DNA of 58,258 bases from Bacillota bacterium. GTDB lineage: Bacteria; Bacillota; Dethiobacteria; DTU022; UBA8154. Both the position numbers and the translations under genes were made by a program. Within the stretch, counting starts at the first letter, position 1. Every line of letters begins with the position of its first letter. Shown piece by piece: positions 26,193 to 36,732 of this stretch. The stretch spans positions 1 to 58,258 of the forward strand of contig JAUSPO010000132.1 in assembly GCA_030656575.1 (NCBI GenBank). The letters run 5' to 3'. The notes beneath the pieces were generated by a model. That model was not told the origin of the DNA. It saw only the letters and a program-made list of their open reading frames with translations, and did not search any database.

Positions 26193-26978
26193 TCATTTAG
26201 CTGTTTGAATAGCTTTTTTTAGGGAGCGGATGAAGTGGGAAAGGGGTGGTTTCCACTGCTTTTGGGTGCCCATGATATGGACAATGCTGCTGCCAACAAT
26301 CACGCCGTCGACACTTTTTGATACATGTGCGGCTTGTTCTGGGGTGGATATTCCAAAGCCCATGCATAATGGCTTATCAGTATGTTTTTTGACTTTGGAA
26401 GTAAACTCGTTCAGTCCCAGAGGGGCATTCTCTCTTATTCCGGTCACCCCCGTGACAGAAATGAGATAAATAAACCCCCGCGAGCGATCTGCTACCTCTC
26501 TGATGCGGGCTTCCGAGCTGTTAGGGGCGAGAAGGTATATTAAATCCAAATTGTGATTTAAAGTGCTTTCTTCTAAGGCACCGGCCTCTTCTAAGGGTAA
26601 ATCCGGGATGATAAGACCATCGATACCTGCCCGGGAAGAGTCGGCACAAAAAAGCTCCTGGCCATAACTGAGGACGGGATTATAATAAGTCATAAAAATC
26701 AGCGGCATATTGGATTTCTTCCTGATAAAGCGGGCAGCATCCAGGCAGGCAGCCGGTGTGATGCCATTTTGCAGGGCCTCGAAGCTTGCCTGCTGGATAG
26801 TTATTCCGTCAGCCAAAGGGTCAGAGAAAGGAATACCCAGCTCCACCATATCAACGCCGCATTTCTCCAGCAGCGGTACCGCCTCAAGCGTAGCCTCAAG
26901 AGTAGGATAACCTACTGTAATAAAGGCAATCAGGGCGGCATGTTTCTTTTCGGTAAATACAGAAGCGATCCTCATCAT
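26193..26978 (-). CDS. trpA: Tryptophan synthase alpha subunit
   Basis: 261 residues. TrpA cleaves indole-3-glycerol phosphate to indole and passes it to TrpB. Seen: [17 protein letters not shown] (catalytic Glu and Asp), FMTYYNPVL, and the phosphate-binding GFGISTPEQ. Length is typical. The start overlaps the trpB stop by 4 bases (ATGA), indicating coupled translation. It is the last gene of the trpDCFBA operon. Confidence 0.95.
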
Positions 26979-28168
26979 TGATTCACCTCCAGTATGCTTC
27001 CTACGATCCCCATATCCTTATCCCCCCGGCCTGATAGATTAACAACGATGGACTGATCTTTTCCCAGCGTTGAAACCAAGTCCAGAGCATAAGCAATGGC
27101 ATGGGATGACTCCAAAGCCGGGATAATTCCCTCCGTTTTGCTGAGAATATGGAAAGCGTCAAGGGCAGGATGATCCTCCACAGTGACGTATTGAGCGCGT
27201 CCACTATTTTTAAGGTAACTGTGTTCCGGACTGACACCTGGGTAATCCAGCCCAGCTGAAATGCTGTGGGTGGATTGAATCTGACCAAACTCATCCTGCA
27301 GGAGAAAAGACTTTGCCCCGTGCAGCACGCCAATTTTCCCTGCAGCGAGAGAAGCAGCGTGCTTACCGCTTTCCAGACCACATCCGCCTGCCTCCACACC
27401 CACCAGTTTAACCTGTTCATCTTTCAAAAAAGGATAGAAAATACCGATAGCATTGGAGCCGCCGCCTACACAGGCGATGACATAATCAGGCAAAGCACCC
27501 CTTAGTGAGAGCACCTGTTCACGAGCTTCCCTTCCAATAACTGACTGGAAATCCCGAACCATTAATGGATAGGGATGAGGCCCCACAGCGGAACCCAGAA
27601 GGTAGAAAGTACTCTCTACATTGGTCACCCAGTCGCGAATAGCTTCATTAACTGCATCTTTAAGAGTTTTGCTTCCGCTTCTAACGGCTTTTATTTCTGC
27701 TCCCAGCAGCCTCATACGATTTACATTGGGAGCCTGCCTGTGTATATCCTCTTCACCCATATAGACAACACATTCCACTCCCAACAGGGCAGAAACTGCG
27801 GCGGCGGCCACACCATGCTGTCCTGCGCCTGTTTCGGCAACTATGCGTTTTTTACCCATCTTTTTGGCCAACAAACCCTGCCCTAAGGCATTGTTTATTT
27901 TGTGTGCCCCCGTATGGAGAAGATCCTCCCGTTTCAGGTAGATGCGGGCTCCACCCTTCAGCTCGCTGAGGCGTTCTGCCTCGTATAAAGGAGTGGGGCG
28001 TCCCGACCAGCACCTTGACAGGCGGAAAAGTTCTTCCTGAAAGGATGGTTCGTCTACTGCCCACCGGTATGCCTCGTTAAGCTCATTTAGGGCAGGAATT
28101 AACACCTCGGGAACAAACCGTCCACCAAATTCTCCAAAATAACCCCTTTCATCGGGTATCATGAACAT
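26975..28168 (-). CDS. trpB: Tryptophan synthase beta subunit
   Basis: 397 residues, TrpB1 type. Catalytic PLP lysine in [16 protein letters not shown], the AETGAGQHG motif, phosphate loop VGGGSNAIG, and GRGDKD near the end. It condenses indole with serine to tryptophan. The start overlaps trpF by 20 bases. Confidence 0.96.
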
Positions 28169-28835
28169 TCACTCCTGTCTTTTTTACTGCCGCAATAAAA
28201 TCCCGTACCTTTGCTCTACTGAGCTTCCCATCTGATGTGACGGATGAAAAGGCATCAACGGCATAGGGCTGAACCTTTCCAACCGCCTCCGACAGATTAC
28301 TTTCGTGCAATCCGCCGGCAAGTATAAGGGGCCTGGGCCACACAGTATCTCTTATACGGCGCGCAGCATCCCAGTCAAAAGTTCTGCCGGTAGAACCATA
28401 TTTACCTTCGCCGTAGGTATCCAGCAAAATAGCATCAGCACCGGCTTTTAAAAACTCCAGGGCAGCATCTTCAGGATTACCCCCTCCTGCAAAACAACCA
28501 TCCTGGAAATGAAGGGTTTTAATAATCCTGGTTTTAAGCTCCCTTTTCAGAAAGGCTACGTCCCCAGGAGTGTTGAACCCGTGCAGCTGCACTGCGTCAG
28601 GACAGACGTATTTCACCATCCGGCATATCTCTTCCACCCGTTCCTCTGTAAGAATCAGAACTCCGGATACCATGGGAGGGATGAGAGTGCAGAAATTCCG
28701 TGCCTCCTCAAGGGCCAGACGGCAGGAAAGTTCCTGTTTCACTTCCGTAATCAGCCCGATAGCATCAGCACCCTCATCTACCAGCAATTGGATATCTTCT
28801 GCGCTTCTGCTGCCGCAAAGCATTACCCTGGTCAT
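28149..28835 (-). CDS. trpF: Phosphoribosylanthranilate isomerase, divergent
   Basis: 228 residues. The catalytic Cys (VMLCGSR, residue 7) and Asp ([19 protein letters not shown]) of TrpF are present, as are VQLHGF and LAGGLHESN. Several other signatures are altered: KICG becomes MLCG and the usual VDVSSGVE becomes VDAFSSVT. TrpF converts phosphoribosylanthranilate to CdRP. The gene begins directly after the trpC stop (no spacer). Function as TrpF is supported by the operon and catalytic pair. Confidence 0.88.
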
Positions 28836-29585
28836 CTAAACCCCTCCCGCCCGCACAAAAGAAGAAACCATCCCGGCAGGATCAGGAGAGATCATCAGGG
28901 CAGTACCGATTAATACCGCATCAGCGCCTGCTTCTACTGCACGCCGTATATCGTTCACGTTACGGTGGGCGCTCTGGCTTATTATTACAGCATCTCCAAC
29001 GCTCTCACGGTAGTCCGCAATAATCTCCTGAGTTATTCGCAGCTGGTCTTCCCCCATTTCCAGATCGTCAATATCTTTGTTATTAATGCCAACCATCAGC
29101 GCCCTATCACCAAGAAGGCTCAGGAAATGGAGATCCTGCCGTCCCCTTGTCTCAATAAGAGCATGCATCCCGCAGGAATAAATGTACTCCAGGATCTCAG
29201 ATAGCTGTTCACCTAACATATGGACATGAAGAAGCAGGGTTACCCGTCCGGTATAACCGGCACCTAATTTCTCTGTAATGTCTTTATAAAAATCTACTCT
29301 CTCAAAGTTTAGGATGAAGTCCTTAACAAGCAGGGGCAGGGAAGTTGCCTGCAGCACTGCCGGAATATCCTTCTCGGGATCTCCACCAAAATGCTGCTGC
29401 TCGGTAACAACGGAAATTCCGGCAGCGCCGCCTGCTTCATACAGTCCTGCCAGTTGGCCGGCTTCCCGCTTATCGCGGGGCAGGCCACACTCGTCTGCCA
29501 GTTTGGGGATTATCCTCTTTATTTCAGCAAGAATGGGAAACACTTTCCTAGCTTGATTTAGTTTTATAGACTGCAGCAGGTTCAA
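28836..29585 (-). CDS. trpC: Indole-3-glycerol-phosphate synthase, divergent
   Basis: 249 residues. By comparison with TrpC, retained residues are Glu and Lys of AEIKR, Lys of LLVKDF, Glu of LIETRG and Asn of GINNKD. The normally invariant SESG is ISQSAH here, replacing a catalytic Glu by Gln, and the phosphate-binding SPS after AEIKR is IPK. Either the enzyme uses an altered catalytic arrangement or it has shifted specificity. The start overlaps the end of trpD by 38 bases. Position in the operon supports TrpC. Confidence 0.8.
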   Translation of the reverse strand: MNLLQSIKLNQARKVFPILAEIKRIIPKLADECGLPRDKREAGQLAGLYEAGGAAGISVVTEQQHFGGDPEKDIPAVLQATSLPLLVKDFILNFERVDFYKDITEKLGAGYTGRVTLLLHVHMLGEQLSEILEYIYSCGMHALIETRGRQDLHFLSLLGDRALMVGINNKDIDDLEMGEDQLRITQEIIADYRESVGDAVIISQSAHRNVNDIRRAVEAGADAVLIGTALMISPDPAGMVSSFVRAGGV

Positions 29586-30615
29586 CTTCCCTTACCCCCT
29601 TTATCTCACGGGATCTGCTGCGTATCTCCTCAAGCTTGGCCATAGCTCTCCCGGAATCCAAAATTTCCCCAGCTAATAACACTCCCTCGTGCAGGGAAGA
29701 AGCTTTACCTGCGACCATCAGCGTAGCCGCTGCATTCAACAGCAGCATATCCCGCCTGGGGCCTCTTTCTTTACCTTGAAAGATATCCAAAATGATCCTG
29801 GCATTGGTTTCCGGGCTTCCCCCCTTGACCTCATCCAGGGTACAACGTTTCATGCCGAATTCTTCCGGGGAAATAGTGTAATTTTCTATTTTTCCTTCTT
29901 TAATTTCTGCTATTTTGGTTTCTCCAAGAAGTGATATTTCGTCTACTCCATCGAGGCCGTGGACAACCATGGCATGAGTAAATCCTAGCTGAGCTGCTGC
30001 TTCGGCTACCTGTTCCACCAGTTGAGGTTTGTAAACACCTAAGAGATGTCTTTTCGCATTGGCAGGGTTTATGAGGGGACCGATGATCGTAAAGAAGATA
30101 GTTTTAATACCGAGATCATTTTCAGGAGTAAAAACTTTCATCATCACCGGGTGGAAAAGGGGAGCGTAGAGGAAGGAAAAGCCTGCTTCTTCAATCAGCG
30201 TTTTCGCCTGTTCAGGTTCTAATTCAACTTCTATTCCTAATGCCTCTAAAATATCGGCACTTCCTGAAGAAGCGGAAATGGAGCGGGAACCATGTTTGGC
30301 AATCTTCACGCCACCAGCAGCAGATAGAAGGGCATTGGCGCTGCTCACATTAAAAGTGGTAAGTCCCCCGCCTGTTCCACAGGTATCGGTCAAATCATCT
30401 TCAACTCTCGGGCTGATTGGAATACAGGCTTTGCGCATAGCCCTGGCAATAGCAACTATTTCGCCTGTGGTAGGACCTTTCATGCGGAATGCCATCAGAA
30501 ATCCTGCTATCTGTGTCTGGGAAAAACGATCTTCCTTGATACCAAATATTAAATCATCTATTTCAGATTGGACCAGTTCTTGCCCTCTGGATACTTTCTG
30601 TAAAATGTCTTTCAT
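29548..30615 (-). CDS. trpD: Anthranilate phosphoribosyltransferase
   Basis: 355 residues with DTCGTGGGLTTFNVSS (PRPP-binding GTGG), AKHGSRSISASSGSADILEA and NPANAKRHLLGVY, all normal for TrpD. It joins anthranilate to PRPP. It is the first enzyme gene of the operon; trpE and trpG are not upstream, so anthranilate must come from elsewhere in the genome or be taken up. ATG 30615 has AAGGGAG upstream and is overlapped by the small leader frame. Confidence 0.95.
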   Translation of the reverse strand: MKDILQKVSRGQELVQSEIDDLIFGIKEDRFSQTQIAGFLMAFRMKGPTTGEIVAIARAMRKACIPISPRVEDDLTDTCGTGGGLTTFNVSSANALLSAAGGVKIAKHGSRSISASSGSADILEALGIEVELEPEQAKTLIEEAGFSFLYAPLFHPVMMKVFTPENDLGIKTIFFTIIGPLINPANAKRHLLGVYKPQLVEQVAEAAAQLGFTHAMVVHGLDGVDEISLLGETKIAEIKEGKIENYTISPEEFGMKRCTLDEVKGGSPETNARIILDIFQGKERGPRRDMLLLNAAATLMVAGKASSLHEGVLLAGEILDSGRAMAKLEEIRSRSREIKGVREVEPAAVYKTKSS

Positions 30616-30767: not shown

Positions 30768-31050
30768 CTCTTGCCCATAACTATAAGGGCGAGAGGCCTG
30801 CTTCCGCGGTACCACCTTACTTGCCGGTAATAAAAATTGCCAGCATCTAATCAGGTACGGCCCTGTTTTTTTCCAAGGGCGATACCCTGAACTCTGCTAA
30901 CGGTGCTCACTCCGGCAAAAACTACTCAGATTAAACTTTTCGTCTCTGCAACTCACAAGTCCATTCACCACCTGCGCCAGGACCGGGCTCCCACCTTTCC
31001 CCGGTTCTCTGAACCCTCGCTTGGGGGCTACTACTCTCGTTCAATGTTAT
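30768..31050 (-). ncRNA. T-box riboswitch, tRNA-Trp specific
   Basis: On the minus strand: Stem I begins GAACGAGAGTAGTA (about 31044), the specifier loop has GTGAATGGACTT with codon TGG (30963-30961), the T-box is AAGGTGGTACCGCGG (about 30819-30805), and a terminator stem GCCTCTCGCCC / GGGCAAGAGGC with T6 ends at 30768. Uncharged tRNA-Trp would stabilise the antiterminator and allow trp transcription. Classic tryptophan-operon control in Firmicutes. Confidence 0.93.
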
Positions 31051-31087
31051 TATCCATCTTATGTTTTTCCCTAAATGTATACCATAT

Positions 31088-31175: not shown

Positions 31176-31210
31176 ATAGATATAAATATTGATATAAGGA
31201 GCGTTTGAAT

Positions 31211-31483
31211 ATGCCAAACATTAGACCGATTTCCGATTTAAGAAACAATGCCAATGACATTTCAGAGTTCTGCCATAAATCAAGAGAGCCAGTTTTTATT
31301 ACTAAAAACGGTGTAGGTGATATGGTTGTAATGAGCGTTGAAACCTACGAGAGGCAGCAGGCACTCATAAGTCTGTATTCAAAGCTTGCTATAGCAGAAG
31401 AAGAAATAGCAAACGGAGCAGAGGGAGAGGATTTTTTTGAGGTTGCAAGACAGTTGAGGAACAGCGTAAATGGACAAGTATAA
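31211..31483 (+). CDS. Phd/YefM-family antitoxin
   Basis: About 90 residues. N-terminal Phd/YefM DNA-binding fold: IRPISDLRNNANDISEFCHK, then EPVFITKNGVGDMVVMS. A C-terminal helical tail would mask the toxin. ATG 31211 has AAGGAGCG about nine bases away and is preferred over TTG 31205. It overlaps the toxin gene by 14 bases, normal for coupled TA operons. Confidence 0.88.
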   Translation: MPNIRPISDLRNNANDISEFCHKSREPVFITKNGVGDMVVMSVETYERQQALISLYSKLAIAEEEIANGAEGEDFFEVARQLRNSVNGQV

Positions 31484-31772
31484 AATCAGGATATATCCCA
31501 ATGCAAAAACAGACTTAAAGGATATTATCAGCTACATCAATACACTGTCCCCACAGGCCGCACTAAAATACTACGATCTGGTTGTAGAAAAAATTGGCAG
31601 CCTTGTGGAAATGCCGGATAGGTGTCCTTTTGTCCGGGATATCGTCCTGAAGGCTAAAGGCTACAGATACTTGATTGTGGAAAACTATTTAGTGTTTTTT
31701 GTTATTAAGGACGATATGGTGCAGATTCGCCGCATTATTTACGGCAAGCGCAATTTTGAATGGCTTTTATAA
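31470..31772 (+). CDS. RelE/ParE-family toxin
   Basis: 100 residues with the RelE/ParE fold: YKIRIYPNAKTDLKDIISYI, then GYRYLIVENYLVFFVI and VQIRRIIYGKRNFEWLL. Whether it is a ribosome-dependent RNase (RelE) or gyrase poison (ParE) cannot be decided. Follows and overlaps its antitoxin. Confidence 0.88.
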   Translation: MDKYKIRIYPNAKTDLKDIISYINTLSPQAALKYYDLVVEKIGSLVEMPDRCPFVRDIVLKAKGYRYLIVENYLVFFVIKDDMVQIRRIIYGKRNFEWLL

Positions 31773-31873: not shown

Positions 31874-32614
31874 CTAATCTAAGCTTTCTTCGTCGTCGTC
31901 GTCACATTCGTGTTCACACTCTTCGTCACAATGCTCGTCACACTCGTGCTCACATTCGGGGCAATCACAATTCGCTTCGCACTCGTCAACACATTCTTCA
32001 CAATTACAATCGTCGTCACAATCGATTATTACTTCTCCCGTTTCATCGTCATAGTCTACCTTTGCTCCAAGTGCTTCTGCGATGAAGCGAAGGGGGACAA
32101 AAGTGCGGTTGTTAATGAGATCGGGGCCTACATCAAATTGCATCTCTTCTCCATTAACATAGTAAGTCATTTCGCCCAGGTAAATGATTACTTCAACGTC
32201 CCCTTTGGTAATCGTAATTTTCCGTTCATCCGCATCCCAGTCCACAGTGGCCTTAAGACCGTTGGATATTGCTCTTAACGGTATAAGCATGCGCCCGCCT
32301 TTTAACACCGGTGGAAGCTCCGTTACAAAAGGCATGCCCCGCAGTTTAATTTTTAGCTCGTGTTTTTCCTTAACAAAAGCGGGGGGTCCAATTAATTTTT
32401 CCTTAAAGGAATGCTGTCTTCCCAACTCCGGCCCTTCTTCTTCCTCTTCTTCTCCTTCTTCCTCGCCATCCTCAACGTTAATGTCTAGATCTCCCGTTCC
32501 CTGAACCTGCTTCCAATCGGGCCCCACATTTTTCTTTGGCGCTGCTGCAGCCAATCCGCAAAGACCCAGTACCATGACAATAGTTAACAAACATGCTAAC
32601 AGCTTTCTGTGCAT
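31874..32614 (-). CDS. Secreted stalk-domain protein with a Cys/Asp/Glu/His-rich tail, under c-di-GMP riboswitch
   Basis: 246 residues from ATG 32614 (AAAGGAGGG upstream). Signal peptide (LLACLLTIVMVLGLCGLAAA), an acidic linker (EEEGEEEEEEGPE), then a Cu-amine-oxidase N1/stalk domain with RMLIPLRAISNGLKATVDWD and RTFVPLRFIAEALGAKVDYD. The last ~50 residues contain 12 Cys and 3 His among Asp and Glu (for example CNCEECVDECEANC), a composition suited to metal binding. The stalk domain suggests cell-surface anchoring. No known family covers the tail. An extracellular metal-binding role is inferred only. Confidence 0.75.
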   Translation of the reverse strand: MHRKLLACLLTIVMVLGLCGLAAAAPKKNVGPDWKQVQGTGDLDINVEDGEEEGEEEEEEGPELGRQHSFKEKLIGPPAFVKEKHELKIKLRGMPFVTELPPVLKGGRMLIPLRAISNGLKATVDWDADERKITITKGDVEVIIYLGEMTYYVNGEEMQFDVGPDLINNRTFVPLRFIAEALGAKVDYDDETGEVIIDCDDDCNCEECVDECEANCDCPECEHECDEHCDEECEHECDDDDEESLD

Positions 32615-32641
32615 AGATATACCCTCCTTTAAATTTTTGCA

Positions 32642-32760
32642 GCGCCGAAATAACACAAAAAGTGCTATTTTCGGCAGCCCGGCGATCATAGCCTCCTCAA
32701 AAAGAGGACCTTAGACCCGTGGCTTTGCGCCCCCGCCTTTCAGTCGGGTTTGCCTTTTCG
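32642..32760 (-). ncRNA. c-di-GMP-I (GEMM) riboswitch
   Basis: Minus strand from about 32758: GGCAAACCCGACTGAAAGGC, then GCGCAAAGCCACGGGTCTAA and, after a GGTCCTC/GAGGAGG stem, CTATGATCGCCGGGCTGCCG. This is the GEMM-I consensus (GGCAAACC, CGCAAAGCC, GGGUCUAAGG, GCCGGGUUGCC) nearly in full. A following hairpin (CCGAAAATAGCAC with GTGTTATTTCGG) reuses the GCCG of the aptamer's last strand and could be the switch; it lacks a clear T-run, so control may be translational. It lies directly upstream of the stalk-domain gene. Confidence 0.9.
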
Positions 32761-32913
32761 TTATGCACTTATACATTCAATAGAGCTCAGGTACCTGATT
32801 CTTATTATTAATACGTTATTCTACAAAAATTTAGGGGGGTCTTGATCAATGGACAACCATCTTTTTTGCTGATAAACTGTTTTGTGAACGAAGAAAAAGG
32901 AGGCATTCCGTAA

Positions 32914-33957
32914 ATGGCTGAAAAAACAGTGGATTTACGCAGTGATACAGTAACACTCCCGGGCAGGGAAATGCGGGAGGCAATGGCGCAGGCCATTGTG
33001 GGGGATGACGTCTTTGGCGGCGACCCTACCGTTAAGCAGTTGGAAGAAGAGGCTGCGGCGCTGACGGGAAAAGAAGCGGCCCTTTTTGTCCCATCCGGGA
33101 CGATGGGAAACCTTATCGCCGTTCTTACTCACACCACAAGGGGAGATGCAGTCCTTCTGGATCCTGAAGCACATATCTTTTATTATGAGGCAGGAGGTTC
33201 CTCTCTTGTGGGAGGCGTTCAGTTATGGCCGGTTGAGAACCTCCATTCTCCTGAAGGTATCCGAAGTTTCAACAAAGCAATACGCCCCTCAGACCAGCAT
33301 TTTGCACCGGCCACCCTCCTCTGTCTGGAAAACACACACAACCGTAAAGGAGGTACTGTTCTGAAGCCTGGCGAACAGGAACTCTTATACCAGGCCGCTA
33401 AAAGCTCAGGCCTCTCGGTCCATCTTGATGGAGCGAGAATTTTTAACGCTGCGGCTGCAGAAAACTGTGCTGTAACGGATTTTACCCGTTCATGCGACTC
33501 GATCATGTTTTGCCTTTCCAAGGGGCTTGGGGCTCCTGTGGGCTCTATCCTGGCCGGATCATCCCCATTCATTAACTCAGCCAGGCGATACCGTAAGATC
33601 CTGGGCGGTGGAATGCGGCAGTCAGGTATTCTTGCTGCAGCGGGCAGGGAAGCCTTGAAACATATCCCTCATCTGCCCGATGACCATCGCCGTGCTTTAA
33701 AACTGGCAGAAGGTATTTCCCAACTGCCGAACTTTGAAGTGACGCCTTTCCCTCCTCCTACCAATATCATTATTTTAAACACGGAAGCTTTGGCATTATC
33801 CTCACCGGAATTAGTAAACAGGCTCCTTCCTTTTGGTATAGAAGCTATCCCCTTTGGTGAAAACCTCGTCCGCATGGTTACCCACCGGGATATTAGCGAT
33901 GACGAAATCGATTACACCCTGGATGTCTTTACAAAAATATCCAAAGGATTATCTTAA
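32914..33957 (+). CDS. Low-specificity L-threonine aldolase
   Basis: 347 residues, PLP enzyme of fold type [13 protein letters not shown] (start), [23 protein letters not shown] and the PLP lysine in [12 protein letters not shown]. It cleaves threonine to glycine and acetaldehyde. AAAAGGAGG lies ten bases before ATG 32914. It stands alone between the riboswitch gene and the two-component system. Confidence 0.92.
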
Positions 33958-34030
33958 CAAAATCTTTACATCATCGGTGTTGCTTATGATCAGGGGTGAA
34001 GATACAATAAAAAGGAAGGAGTGTGCTCCC

Positions 34031-34729
34031 ATGACCGTAAGCCAGAAGATCGTTGTCATCGAAGATGAAGTAAAAATAGCACAGATGATTAAGGATTACC
34101 TGGAAAGAGAAGGGTTTTCTGTCTTTATGGCAGAAAATGGAACAAAGGGGATAGAACGAGTCCGGCAAAAGTCACCGGATCTGATCATTTTAGACCTGAT
34201 GCTGCCTGATATGAGCGGCCTTGAAGTCTGCCGTACGTTAAACCGGGAAAACAATACGCCCATTATTATGCTCACCGCCAAATCACAGGAAACAGACCGC
34301 ATTGTAGGACTGGAAATGGGAGCAGACGATTATATCACAAAGCCTTTTAGCCTCGCAGAATTAACAGCGCGCATCAGGGCGGTCTTACGCCGCGCGGGCG
34401 GGAATGACCAGCAAAAATTTTCCCAGGAAAAAATTATTGACAGGGGAGAACTGAAGATAGACATTGAAAAACACAAAGTTAGAAAGAGTAACGAGGAAAT
34501 TGTCCTCACACCTACAGAATTTAACATCTTGGCACTAATGGCCCATAATCCGGGAAGAGTCTTCAGCCGGCTGCAGCTTCTGGACGCAGCCCTTGGTGAA
34601 ACCTACAGCGGTTATGAACGTTCAATTGACACCCATATCAGCAACCTGAGAAGGAAGATTGAAGATGACCCTGCTAGCCCTTCCTATGTTGTAACAGTGT
34701 TTGGCCTGGGTTATAAATTTAACGAATAA
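34031..34729 (+). CDS. OmpR/PhoB-family response regulator
   Basis: 232 residues from ATG 34031 (AGGAAGGAG upstream). Receiver domain with acidic pair EDE, phosphoacceptor Asp55 in LIILDLMLPDMSG and Lys in ITKPFS, then a winged-helix output domain (LTPTEFNILALMAHNPGRVF, SIDTHISNLRRKIEDDP). Its histidine kinase follows 41 bases downstream. Confidence 0.93.
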   Translation: MTVSQKIVVIEDEVKIAQMIKDYLEREGFSVFMAENGTKGIERVRQKSPDLIILDLMLPDMSGLEVCRTLNRENNTPIIMLTAKSQETDRIVGLEMGADDYITKPFSLAELTARIRAVLRRAGGNDQQKFSQEKIIDRGELKIDIEKHKVRKSNEEIVLTPTEFNILALMAHNPGRVFSRLQLLDAALGETYSGYERSIDTHISNLRRKIEDDPASPSYVVTVFGLGYKFNE

Positions 34730-34770
34730 CGCATACAGGAGGACAGAGGCGAAAATTCGCTGCAGATAGT

Positions 34771-36141
34771 ATGAAACTGCGAAACAGAATTCTTGGGTCT
34801 TTCATTTTGATCATTGCCGTGGCCGTTGTGGTCATGGCTTTTACATCGCGCATCTATATTAATAATATCTTTGATCGCTATGCTGAAAGCTACCGCAGTG
34901 TCGTGGCTGAGCAATGGGAATATCTCCTTAAGTCATACTACCAGCGCCAGGGAAGCTGGGCAGGTGTGGAAAACATTTTAAATTCCAGACGTAGAAATTC
35001 GCCTGCCCTCAGGGGTCACATGGGAGGTAATATTCGAGGGATGCTCCCGGGAGAAGAATTGGTTCTTACTGACGAAAAAGGGATGGTTCTTTTTGATTCC
35101 CAGGATGAAATATGGGGAGAAGTATTGCCACAGCACTATTTGGACCGGGGGATACCGCTCGTTATTGATGGAAATAGGATAGGTACACTCATTATGCAGC
35201 CAGAGGCTTCCAGGGCAGTTCTGACCATGGAAGAGCAGTTTTCCCGTTCCGTGATACTGGCAGTTCTCTGGGGAGGATTGGCTGCTTTACTGGCAGGGAC
35301 AGTTTTAAGTTTTTTGCTTACGGGGCAGATCTCGAAACCCCTTGCCCTTTTAACATCTTCAGCAAAAAGATTCGCCCGCCGCGATTTCAAGCATCGGGTG
35401 CAAATTAACAGTAAAGATGAAGTGGGAAAGCTTGCAGATGCTTTTAATTTTATGGCCGACAGTATCGAAAAAAATGAAAGGCTGCGCCGCAACCTCACGG
35501 CGGACGTTTCCCATGAACTGCGTACTCCTTTAACCATCCTGAGGGGAAATTTTGAGTCACTTCAGGCAGGCCGGAAACCAACTATGGAGCTAATTTCATC
35601 TCTTCATGATGAAGTTCTCAGACTCAGCAGGTTGGTAAGCGACCTCGAGTCAATAAACCTCGCTGAGGCGGGTAAGCTGCCGCTTCATTACAAAGAAGTG
35701 GAGGTCAGTTCTCTATGCTCCCGGGCCTCTTTCCCATTCCAACACGAAGCTCAGGAACGGGAAATAAATTTTTCCTGGCAAGTTGAAGATAAATTAGAAA
35801 GTTGGGGCATGGATGAAGACCGTATTATGCAGGTATTGATCAATCTTTTGGCCAACGCTTTCAGGTTCACACCCGACAGGGGAAAAATTCTGCTGCAGGC
35901 TGAACAATCAAACGGGAACCTCGTCATTTATATTATTGATTCCGGGCCGGGTATATCCCAGGAGGACATTCCTTTTATTTTTGAACGCTTTTATAAAACG
36001 GGAAGAGGCAGAGGCGAGGGCAGCGGACTGGGTCTCTCCATTGCCAAAAGTTTTGTGGAGGCTCATGGGGGGACAATATCAGCTGACACTCTTCCCGATG
36101 CGGGAAGCATCTTTACCTTCAGCATCCCTCCATCCAAGTAA
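34771..36141 (+). CDS. Sensor histidine kinase
   Basis: 456 residues. Two membrane helices (FILIIAVAVVVMAF, about 11-24, and a second near 165-185), an extracytoplasmic sensor region rich in Arg, Gly and Glu, a HAMP segment (SKPLALLTSSAKRFARRDF), HisKA with His248 in ADVSHELRTPLTILRG, and HATPase with NLLANAFRFTP, DSGPGI and GSGLGLSIAKSFVEAHGG. It would phosphorylate the response regulator upstream. A Spy-like protein is convergent downstream, so an envelope or metal signal is a possible input. Confidence 0.93.
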   Translation: MKLRNRILGSFILIIAVAVVVMAFTSRIYINNIFDRYAESYRSVVAEQWEYLLKSYYQRQGSWAGVENILNSRRRNSPALRGHMGGNIRGMLPGEELVLTDEKGMVLFDSQDEIWGEVLPQHYLDRGIPLVIDGNRIGTLIMQPEASRAVLTMEEQFSRSVILAVLWGGLAALLAGTVLSFLLTGQISKPLALLTSSAKRFARRDFKHRVQINSKDEVGKLADAFNFMADSIEKNERLRRNLTADVSHELRTPLTILRGNFESLQAGRKPTMELISSLHDEVLRLSRLVSDLESINLAEAGKLPLHYKEVEVSSLCSRASFPFQHEAQEREINFSWQVEDKLESWGMDEDRIMQVLINLLANAFRFTPDRGKILLQAEQSNGNLVIYIIDSGPGISQEDIPFIFERFYKTGRGRGEGSGLGLSIAKSFVEAHGGTISADTLPDAGSIFTFSIPPSK

Positions 36142-36232: not shown

Positions 36233-36643
36233 TTAGCGAACTCTACCTTGGAATTTGGCAAGGTTCTGATGGCGATTGGAGAACCTCTTTGCAGGTCCCA
36301 TGGAATCAAAGCGCTCCATGTATTCTTCCGGGATGTAGGGCCTTAATTCTTCTTTCATCTCTTCTTTTAAATCCCACATTTCGGTACGTATCTCCCTTGA
36401 TTCCTCAATCTGTCCCTGATCCCGTAAGCTGCGAAATTGCTCCTTTAAGACTGCGATTTTATCCATGAACTTCTCTCTGATAGCGGTTACTTCCGCCTTG
36501 GCTTCCGGGGAAATTGATTCGAGCCAACAGCCGTTCACATTATCCGGGCCACGACCATTGCCGCCACCAAATGCCAGAACTGCCTGAGATGTTCCCATTA
36601 CCAGCAGTGCAAGCGCCAGCAGCACAAAAATTGTTTTACGCAT
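36233..36643 (-). CDS. Spy/CpxP-like periplasmic-type stress protein
   Basis: 136 residues from ATG 36643 (AAAGGAGGTG upstream; GTG 36655 would sit in the site). Signal peptide (FVLLALALLVMGTSQAVLA), then a helical, charged protein (EVTAIREKFMDKIAVLKEQF, then SREIRTEMWDLKEEMKEEL) of the Spy/CpxP/ZraP shape. In Gram-negatives these are envelope chaperones or metal sensors. Here it would be secreted or wall-associated. The adjacent two-component system may regulate it. Confidence 0.6.
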   Translation of the reverse strand: MRKTIFVLLALALLVMGTSQAVLAFGGGNGRGPDNVNGCWLESISPEAKAEVTAIREKFMDKIAVLKEQFRSLRDQGQIEESREIRTEMWDLKEEMKEELRPYIPEEYMERFDSMGPAKRFSNRHQNLAKFQGRVR

Positions 36644-36732
36644 GATGGACTGCACCTCCTTTCGTTGAACTTTACGTGCAAGTATATTTTAACCAGTGGA
36701 TTTCAACATTTGGTTAAGCATTTGTGAAGAAT

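Follow-up and report, generated by a model that had tools for sequence, protein, structure and literature searches.

The locus analysed here raises two questions: what does a c-di-GMP riboswitch control when the gene behind it encodes an exported protein ending in a strongly acidic, cysteine-rich segment, and does that segment have a selected function? The gene is encoded on the minus strand of a 58,258-nt stretch of a Bacillota contig (JAUSPO010000132.1), and 'the window' below denotes this whole stretch of DNA.

A c-di-GMP-I aptamer directly precedes the gene for a stalk-domain protein

The Rfam family RF01051 (c-di-GMP-I, or GEMM-I, riboswitch) matches positions 32764-32670 (minus strand) with 73.9 bits (E = 1.2e-12; gathering score, 35 bits). 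The match covers model positions 1-87 of 87, i.e. the full length of the aptamer, and outscores those of the fellow clan members. This bears out the first-pass annotation, which had placed a near-consensus GEMM-I aptamer directly before the gene; as matched, the aptamer (32670-32764) reaches 4 nt beyond the end coordinate of 32760 given there. On the same strand, 55 nt separate it from the start codon.

The gene (31874-32614, minus strand) encodes a 246-residue protein. Its ATG at 32614 follows AAAGGAGGG; a Shine-Dalgarno (SD) sequence, GGAGGG, lies at 32622-32627 (minus strand), and the orthologous proteins described below begin with the same MHxKL. A 271-residue open reading frame from an upstream ATG at 32689 was rejected, since that codon falls within the aptamer and is without the conserved SD-ATG spacing.

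Residues 1-24 (32543-32614, minus strand) are predicted by inspection to form a signal peptide cleaved near AAA-AP, and the AlphaFold model has a helix at residues 2-19. A lipoprotein reading was discarded because Leu precedes Cys19, which leaves no canonical lipobox. The remainder of the protein comprises an acidic linker at about residues 42-62 (32429-32491, minus strand; predicted to be disordered from sequence and pLDDT), a stalk domain at residues 93-197 (PF07833, Cu_amine_oxidN1; 32024-32338, minus strand; 118 bits against a gathering score of 24.2) and the C-terminal tail. With nine related proteins as input, AlphaFold models the stalk domain confidently and assigns pLDDT values below 50 to residues 23-85 and 201-246. 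Foldseek matches the modelled domain to the N-terminal domain of E. coli copper amine oxidase (E = 2e-5; rmsd of 1.5 Å over 72 columns). The earlier description of a signal-peptide, stalk-domain protein behind the aptamer thus holds, and that the protein is exported is, in our judgement, close to certain.

The tail combines 12 cysteines with a high acidic content

The tail spans residues 198-246 (31877-32023, minus strand) and is predicted by AlphaFold to be disordered. Its 49 residues comprise 12 Cys, 3 His, 13 Asp and 14 Glu, i.e. 27 acidic residues (55%), which agrees exactly with the 12 Cys, 3 His and many Asp/Glu first counted in the last ~50 residues. All of the cysteines of the predicted mature protein are found here; Cys8 and Cys19 sit in the signal peptide. 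Chance composition is ruled out, because the binomial probability of at least 12 Cys in 49 residues is 2e-13 at an assumed Cys frequency of 1.1%.

Successive cysteines are spaced by 4, 2, 3, 4, 4, 2, 3, 4, 4, 4 and 4 residues: the pattern C-x3-C-x-C-x2-C-x3 occurs twice with a period of 13 and is followed by a run of C-x3. In the DNA, Tandem Repeats Finder reports a degenerate 12-nt tandem repeat of a Cys-acidic unit at 31896-31958 (minus strand; 5.2 copies, 70% matches, score 56), and therefore part of the tail has probably been enlarged by repeat expansion.

The tail matched no family in Pfam (E up to 10), NCBIfam (E up to 5) or the PDB, where the best match was a trypsin inhibitor with E = 0.83, and a search of plasmid records found nothing. 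Heme attachment, as in a multiheme c-type cytochrome segment, was considered and rejected, as the tail lacks CxxCH.

The riboswitch–stalk pairing is conserved and the cysteine tail is not

Two full-length orthologs were found, both assigned to a single further genus within the family: one in genome G001 (53% identity), on the same contig as in MAG DeMMO6_36, and one in genome G010 (49% identity), on the same contig as in Dethiobacter sp. SURF_39. In both, the gene directly follows a c-di-GMP-I aptamer (scores of 76.4 and 80.4 bits), and the leader that follows the aptamer is nearly identical in the window, G001 and G010. A more distant relative, in G005, likewise has a GEMM-type aptamer, a signal peptide, a stalk domain and an acidic tail without Cys. 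The pairing of riboswitch and stalk protein is conserved between the window and both full-length orthologs.

Two observations concern the surroundings of the orthologs. G010 carries a second, truncated copy of the stalk protein (L036, 1468-1854) that ends within the stalk domain, as a decaying paralog would, and no aptamer was found in the stretch fetched around this copy. On the G001 contig, a GGDEF + HD-GYP-type protein is encoded just upstream of the riboswitch and stalk gene, on the same strand (L042, 678-2381); the window has no such neighbour.

The tails of the G001 and G010 orthologs match that of the window in acidity (58% Asp + Glu), differ in length and contain no Cys. When the tail alone was used in tblastn-type searches, of 23 family genomes and of 98 from the class, the window was the sole match. 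When the spacing pattern of seven cysteines was searched for in 398 genomes of the phylum, the matches besides the window were mostly simple TGY repeats. One other peptide looked Cys-rich and had a different composition; this peptide, CLQACVCTQCYGSCSVLCLC (G404:C15:17459-17518), shares the seven-Cys spacing and is unrelated.

Since the ortholog tails lack Cys and no similar tail occurs in the 98 class genomes, the Cys tail is, on present evidence, a single-lineage gain, in a searched set in which this genome is the sole member of its genus. The first-pass annotation had tied a Cys-acidic tail protein to c-di-GMP. Of this claim, the riboswitch–stalk pairing stands; the Cys tail is confined to one genome and is no conserved element of the regulon, and no relative searched combines a stalk domain and a Cys-acidic tail under GEMM control.

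Metal binding, drift or disulfides

What, then, might the tail do? A selected role in metal binding is putative, and we would place it somewhat below an even chance; its mixture of thiolate, carboxylate and imidazole groups would suit soft and divalent metals. Searches of the 99%-complete genome for two thiol-oxidation families, DsbA (PF01323) and VKOR (PF07884), gave no match, and obligate anaerobes tend to keep Cys out of exported proteins (PMC12453122). Because of these two points, free or metal-bound thiols are favoured over disulfides.

The comparative data give no sign of selection on the tail cysteines, as the orthologs do without them. It is accordingly a serious, if minority, possibility that the tail is neutral or weakly selected low-complexity sequence, in which the sole constraint is to remain long, acidic and disordered and the cysteines arose through point changes and slippage. 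Such drift would agree with the wide variation of tail length and sequence among orthologs at a steady Asp + Glu content (51-58% in the three closest relatives), with the in-frame TAG that interrupts the tail of the G010 ortholog, with the 12-nt repeat that forms part of the Cys tail, and with the restriction of this tail to one genome among those searched. However, 12 Cys in 49 residues are costly in an exported protein of an anaerobe, and in the other stalk-domain proteins of the genome, which has 12 PF07833 matches, the final 60 residues contain 0-2 Cys. Furthermore, adjacent cysteines are absent from the tail, as in just 0.8% of tail shuffles, and the period-13 spacing is enriched to a degree reached in 0.3% of shuffles, although the repeat itself may account for it.

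A disulfide-rich tail had also been suggested. Its intra- or intermolecular links would tie the protein into the wall or a matrix. The even number of cysteines, all in the exported tail, would fit this reading, but we regard it as improbable given the missing DsbA and VKOR matches (the two families searched) and the avoidance of Cys in the exported proteins of obligate anaerobes (PMC12453122). The predicted disorder of the tail also argues against it, though disorder is poorly predicted where Cys is abundant.

The metal-binding reading would work as follows. A small secreted surface or matrix protein, with one stalk domain between disordered acidic segments, would be produced under an ordinary c-di-GMP-I riboswitch; its acidic C-terminal tail would have gained 12 Cys in this genome alone, partly via expansion of a four-residue repeat. 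The tail may be exported with its thiols free; at the cell surface these thiols, together with the carboxylates and His, could bind metal ions, soft or divalent ones, or sulfide minerals.

The leader offers two mutually exclusive structures

In the aptamer alignment, G, A and C occupy the equivalents of G20, A47 and C92 of Vc2 (the numbering is our own mapping), positions that contact c-di-GMP. As there is a G at the G20 equivalent, whereas a G20A change permits GEMM-I variants to bind 3',3'-cGAMP (PMC6274999), the expected ligand is c-di-GMP. The precedent of these variants notwithstanding, a loss of function or the recognition of another dinucleotide such as 3',3'-cGAMP is very improbable in view of the G and the C at the equivalents of G20 and C92, a score far over the cut-off and a leader kept in the orthologs. 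Judged from the sequence, we have very little doubt that the aptamer would act as a working c-di-GMP riboswitch.

Two structures compete for the 3' end of the aptamer. First, the P1 helix can be extended by pairing AAGUGC (32765-32770, minus strand; kept in both orthologs) with GCACUU (32660-32665, minus strand), which runs into a U-run, UUUUU (32657-32661, minus strand); 4 of 500 shuffled sequences were equally stable. Second, a competing hairpin, CCGAAAAUAGCAC-UUUUU-GUGUUAUUUCGG (32645-32674, minus strand; kept in the orthologs), pairs CCGAAAAUAGCAC with GUGUUAUUUCGG through 12 base pairs with one mismatch and has the U-run as its apical loop. Its folding energy is -12.7 kcal/mol over a 34-nt stretch, a stability that none of 500 shuffles reached. 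The hairpin consumes the aptamer 3' end and the 3' strand of the extended P1; the two structures are therefore mutually exclusive, and ligand binding should decide between them.

We compared seven leaders, from the window, G001, G010, G005, G017, G002 and G022. The last four, three of which precede signal-peptide proteins, have the same layout with another hairpin sequence (GUGGAGC with GUUCCAC, in a weaker version in G022). The U-run is at the same position in all seven, and differences in helix sequence leave the pairing intact. In each leader the competing hairpin is more stable than at least 95% of shuffled sequences, and the extended P1 more stable than at least 84%; the seven were picked by eye from all 53 aptamer matches in the family, so that the shuffles back each structure and not the choice of the subset.

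How might this leader switch? A terminator scan found no conventional terminator in the leader downstream of the aptamer, the lone terminator-like hit being in the P3 region of the aptamer, and no sigma-70-type promoter for the stalk gene was found upstream of the aptamer. Sequestration of the SD sequence was rejected as the switch, as constrained folding gave no consistent difference in SD accessibility between states. Class I c-di-GMP riboswitches in C. difficile are uniformly OFF switches (PMC6200980), and OFF switching, the simplest reading of an extended P1 that ends at a U-run, is probably the direction here. At high c-di-GMP, the bound aptamer would hold the extended P1 and block the competing hairpin, turning the gene off; at low c-di-GMP, the competing hairpin would form and the protein would be made. 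RNA polymerase reaches the 3' arm of the competing hairpin only once the U-run has been made, and hence the hairpin cannot be a classical antiterminator for a U-run terminator. Because of this late 3' arm and the inconsistent SD accessibility, the direction of switching, like the level of control, is best treated as provisional.

The c-di-GMP regulon and the neighbourhood of the gene

The genome has four c-di-GMP-I aptamers and nine GGDEF domains. The other three aptamers lie on a single contig, before genes that by inspection encode a CpaF-type ATPase, a transglutaminase-type protein and a sensor kinase; this contig also carries an EAL-HDOD-type protein and, again by inspection, pilus-type and c-di-GMP-turnover genes. 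In the family as a whole, 53 aptamer matches are spread over 22 of the 23 genomes, and the genes that follow, named by inspection, are of the tad pilus, type IV pilin-like, FlgB-like, CheX-like and other signal-peptide types. A c-di-GMP regulon would be expected to look like this.

Among the family aptamers, a tandem pair of c-di-GMP-I aptamers in G010 (L080; G010:C9:49651-49898) precedes a FlgB-like flagellar gene, with each extended P1 ending at a U-run. At three other loci (L082, L089 and L070), c-di-GMP-I aptamers stand directly before small exported proteins that look, by inspection, like CalY/TasA-type matrix proteins.

Next to the stalk gene in the window lies a trp-type operon (26193-30615, minus strand), preceded by a T-box leader (30782-31053, minus strand; 113 bits). 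A Phd/YefM antitoxin and ParE toxin pair (31205-31772, plus strand), overlapping by 14 nt, is convergent with the stalk gene. Farther off, a gene at 36233-36655 (minus strand) encodes a small exported Glu/Arg-rich protein that resembles CpxP/Spy-type chaperones by inspection, with no Pfam match above cut-off; it adjoins a two-component system (33854-36141).

DISCUSSION

Taking the evidence together, the best overall explanation is that a c-di-GMP-I riboswitch precedes the gene of a secreted stalk protein whose acidic tail gained 12 Cys and may bind metal, a reading to which we give an even chance. A bolder version, in which a polyanionic tail was converted into a c-di-GMP-controlled, metallothionein-like acidic-thiol binder of metals or metal sulfides and the extended P1 acts as a terminator stem, would be a long shot. 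The aptamer family, the stalk domain and the layout of a riboswitch before a surface gene are all known; the Cys tail appears to be particular to this genome.

These results tie c-di-GMP signalling to one class of small surface proteins with a stalk domain. The bacteria concerned belong to an anaerobic group that has received little study, and its sequenced relatives include metagenome assemblies from the deep subsurface. The results also indicate that a regulated protein can retain its riboswitch and its domain while its acidic tail is rewritten, and the design common to the seven leaders provides a testable minimal expression platform. If the thiol tail does bind metal, lifestyle switching would be coupled to extracellular metal capture.

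Metallothioneins and other Cys-rich metal-binding peptides have many cysteines, spaced as CxC and CxxC. The tail is similar in these respects; it differs from metallothioneins in being exported, strongly acidic and attached to a stalk domain, and in matching no Pfam, NCBIfam or PDB family. With the exported PF07833 proteins of Firmicutes, the protein shares its signal peptide, its PF07833 domain and the fold match to E. coli copper amine oxidase. However, most of those proteins are larger or multi-domain, whereas here a single stalk domain is flanked by acidic segments and accompanied by the Cys-rich tail. As for the riboswitch, class I switches in C. difficile belong to the same aptamer family and likewise stand directly before genes for exported or surface proteins, one of them a putative calcium-binding adhesin (PMC6200980); similarly, the Bc2 RNA of B. 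thuringiensis is a c-di-GMP-I switch before the collagen adhesion protein Cap (PMC4933901). Compared with these GEMM-I switches of Clostridia and Bacilli, the switch in the window differs in its target, a small stalk-domain protein, and in its leader, where the U-run is set between the extended P1 and a competing hairpin and no classical terminator hairpin with a separate U-run follows downstream.
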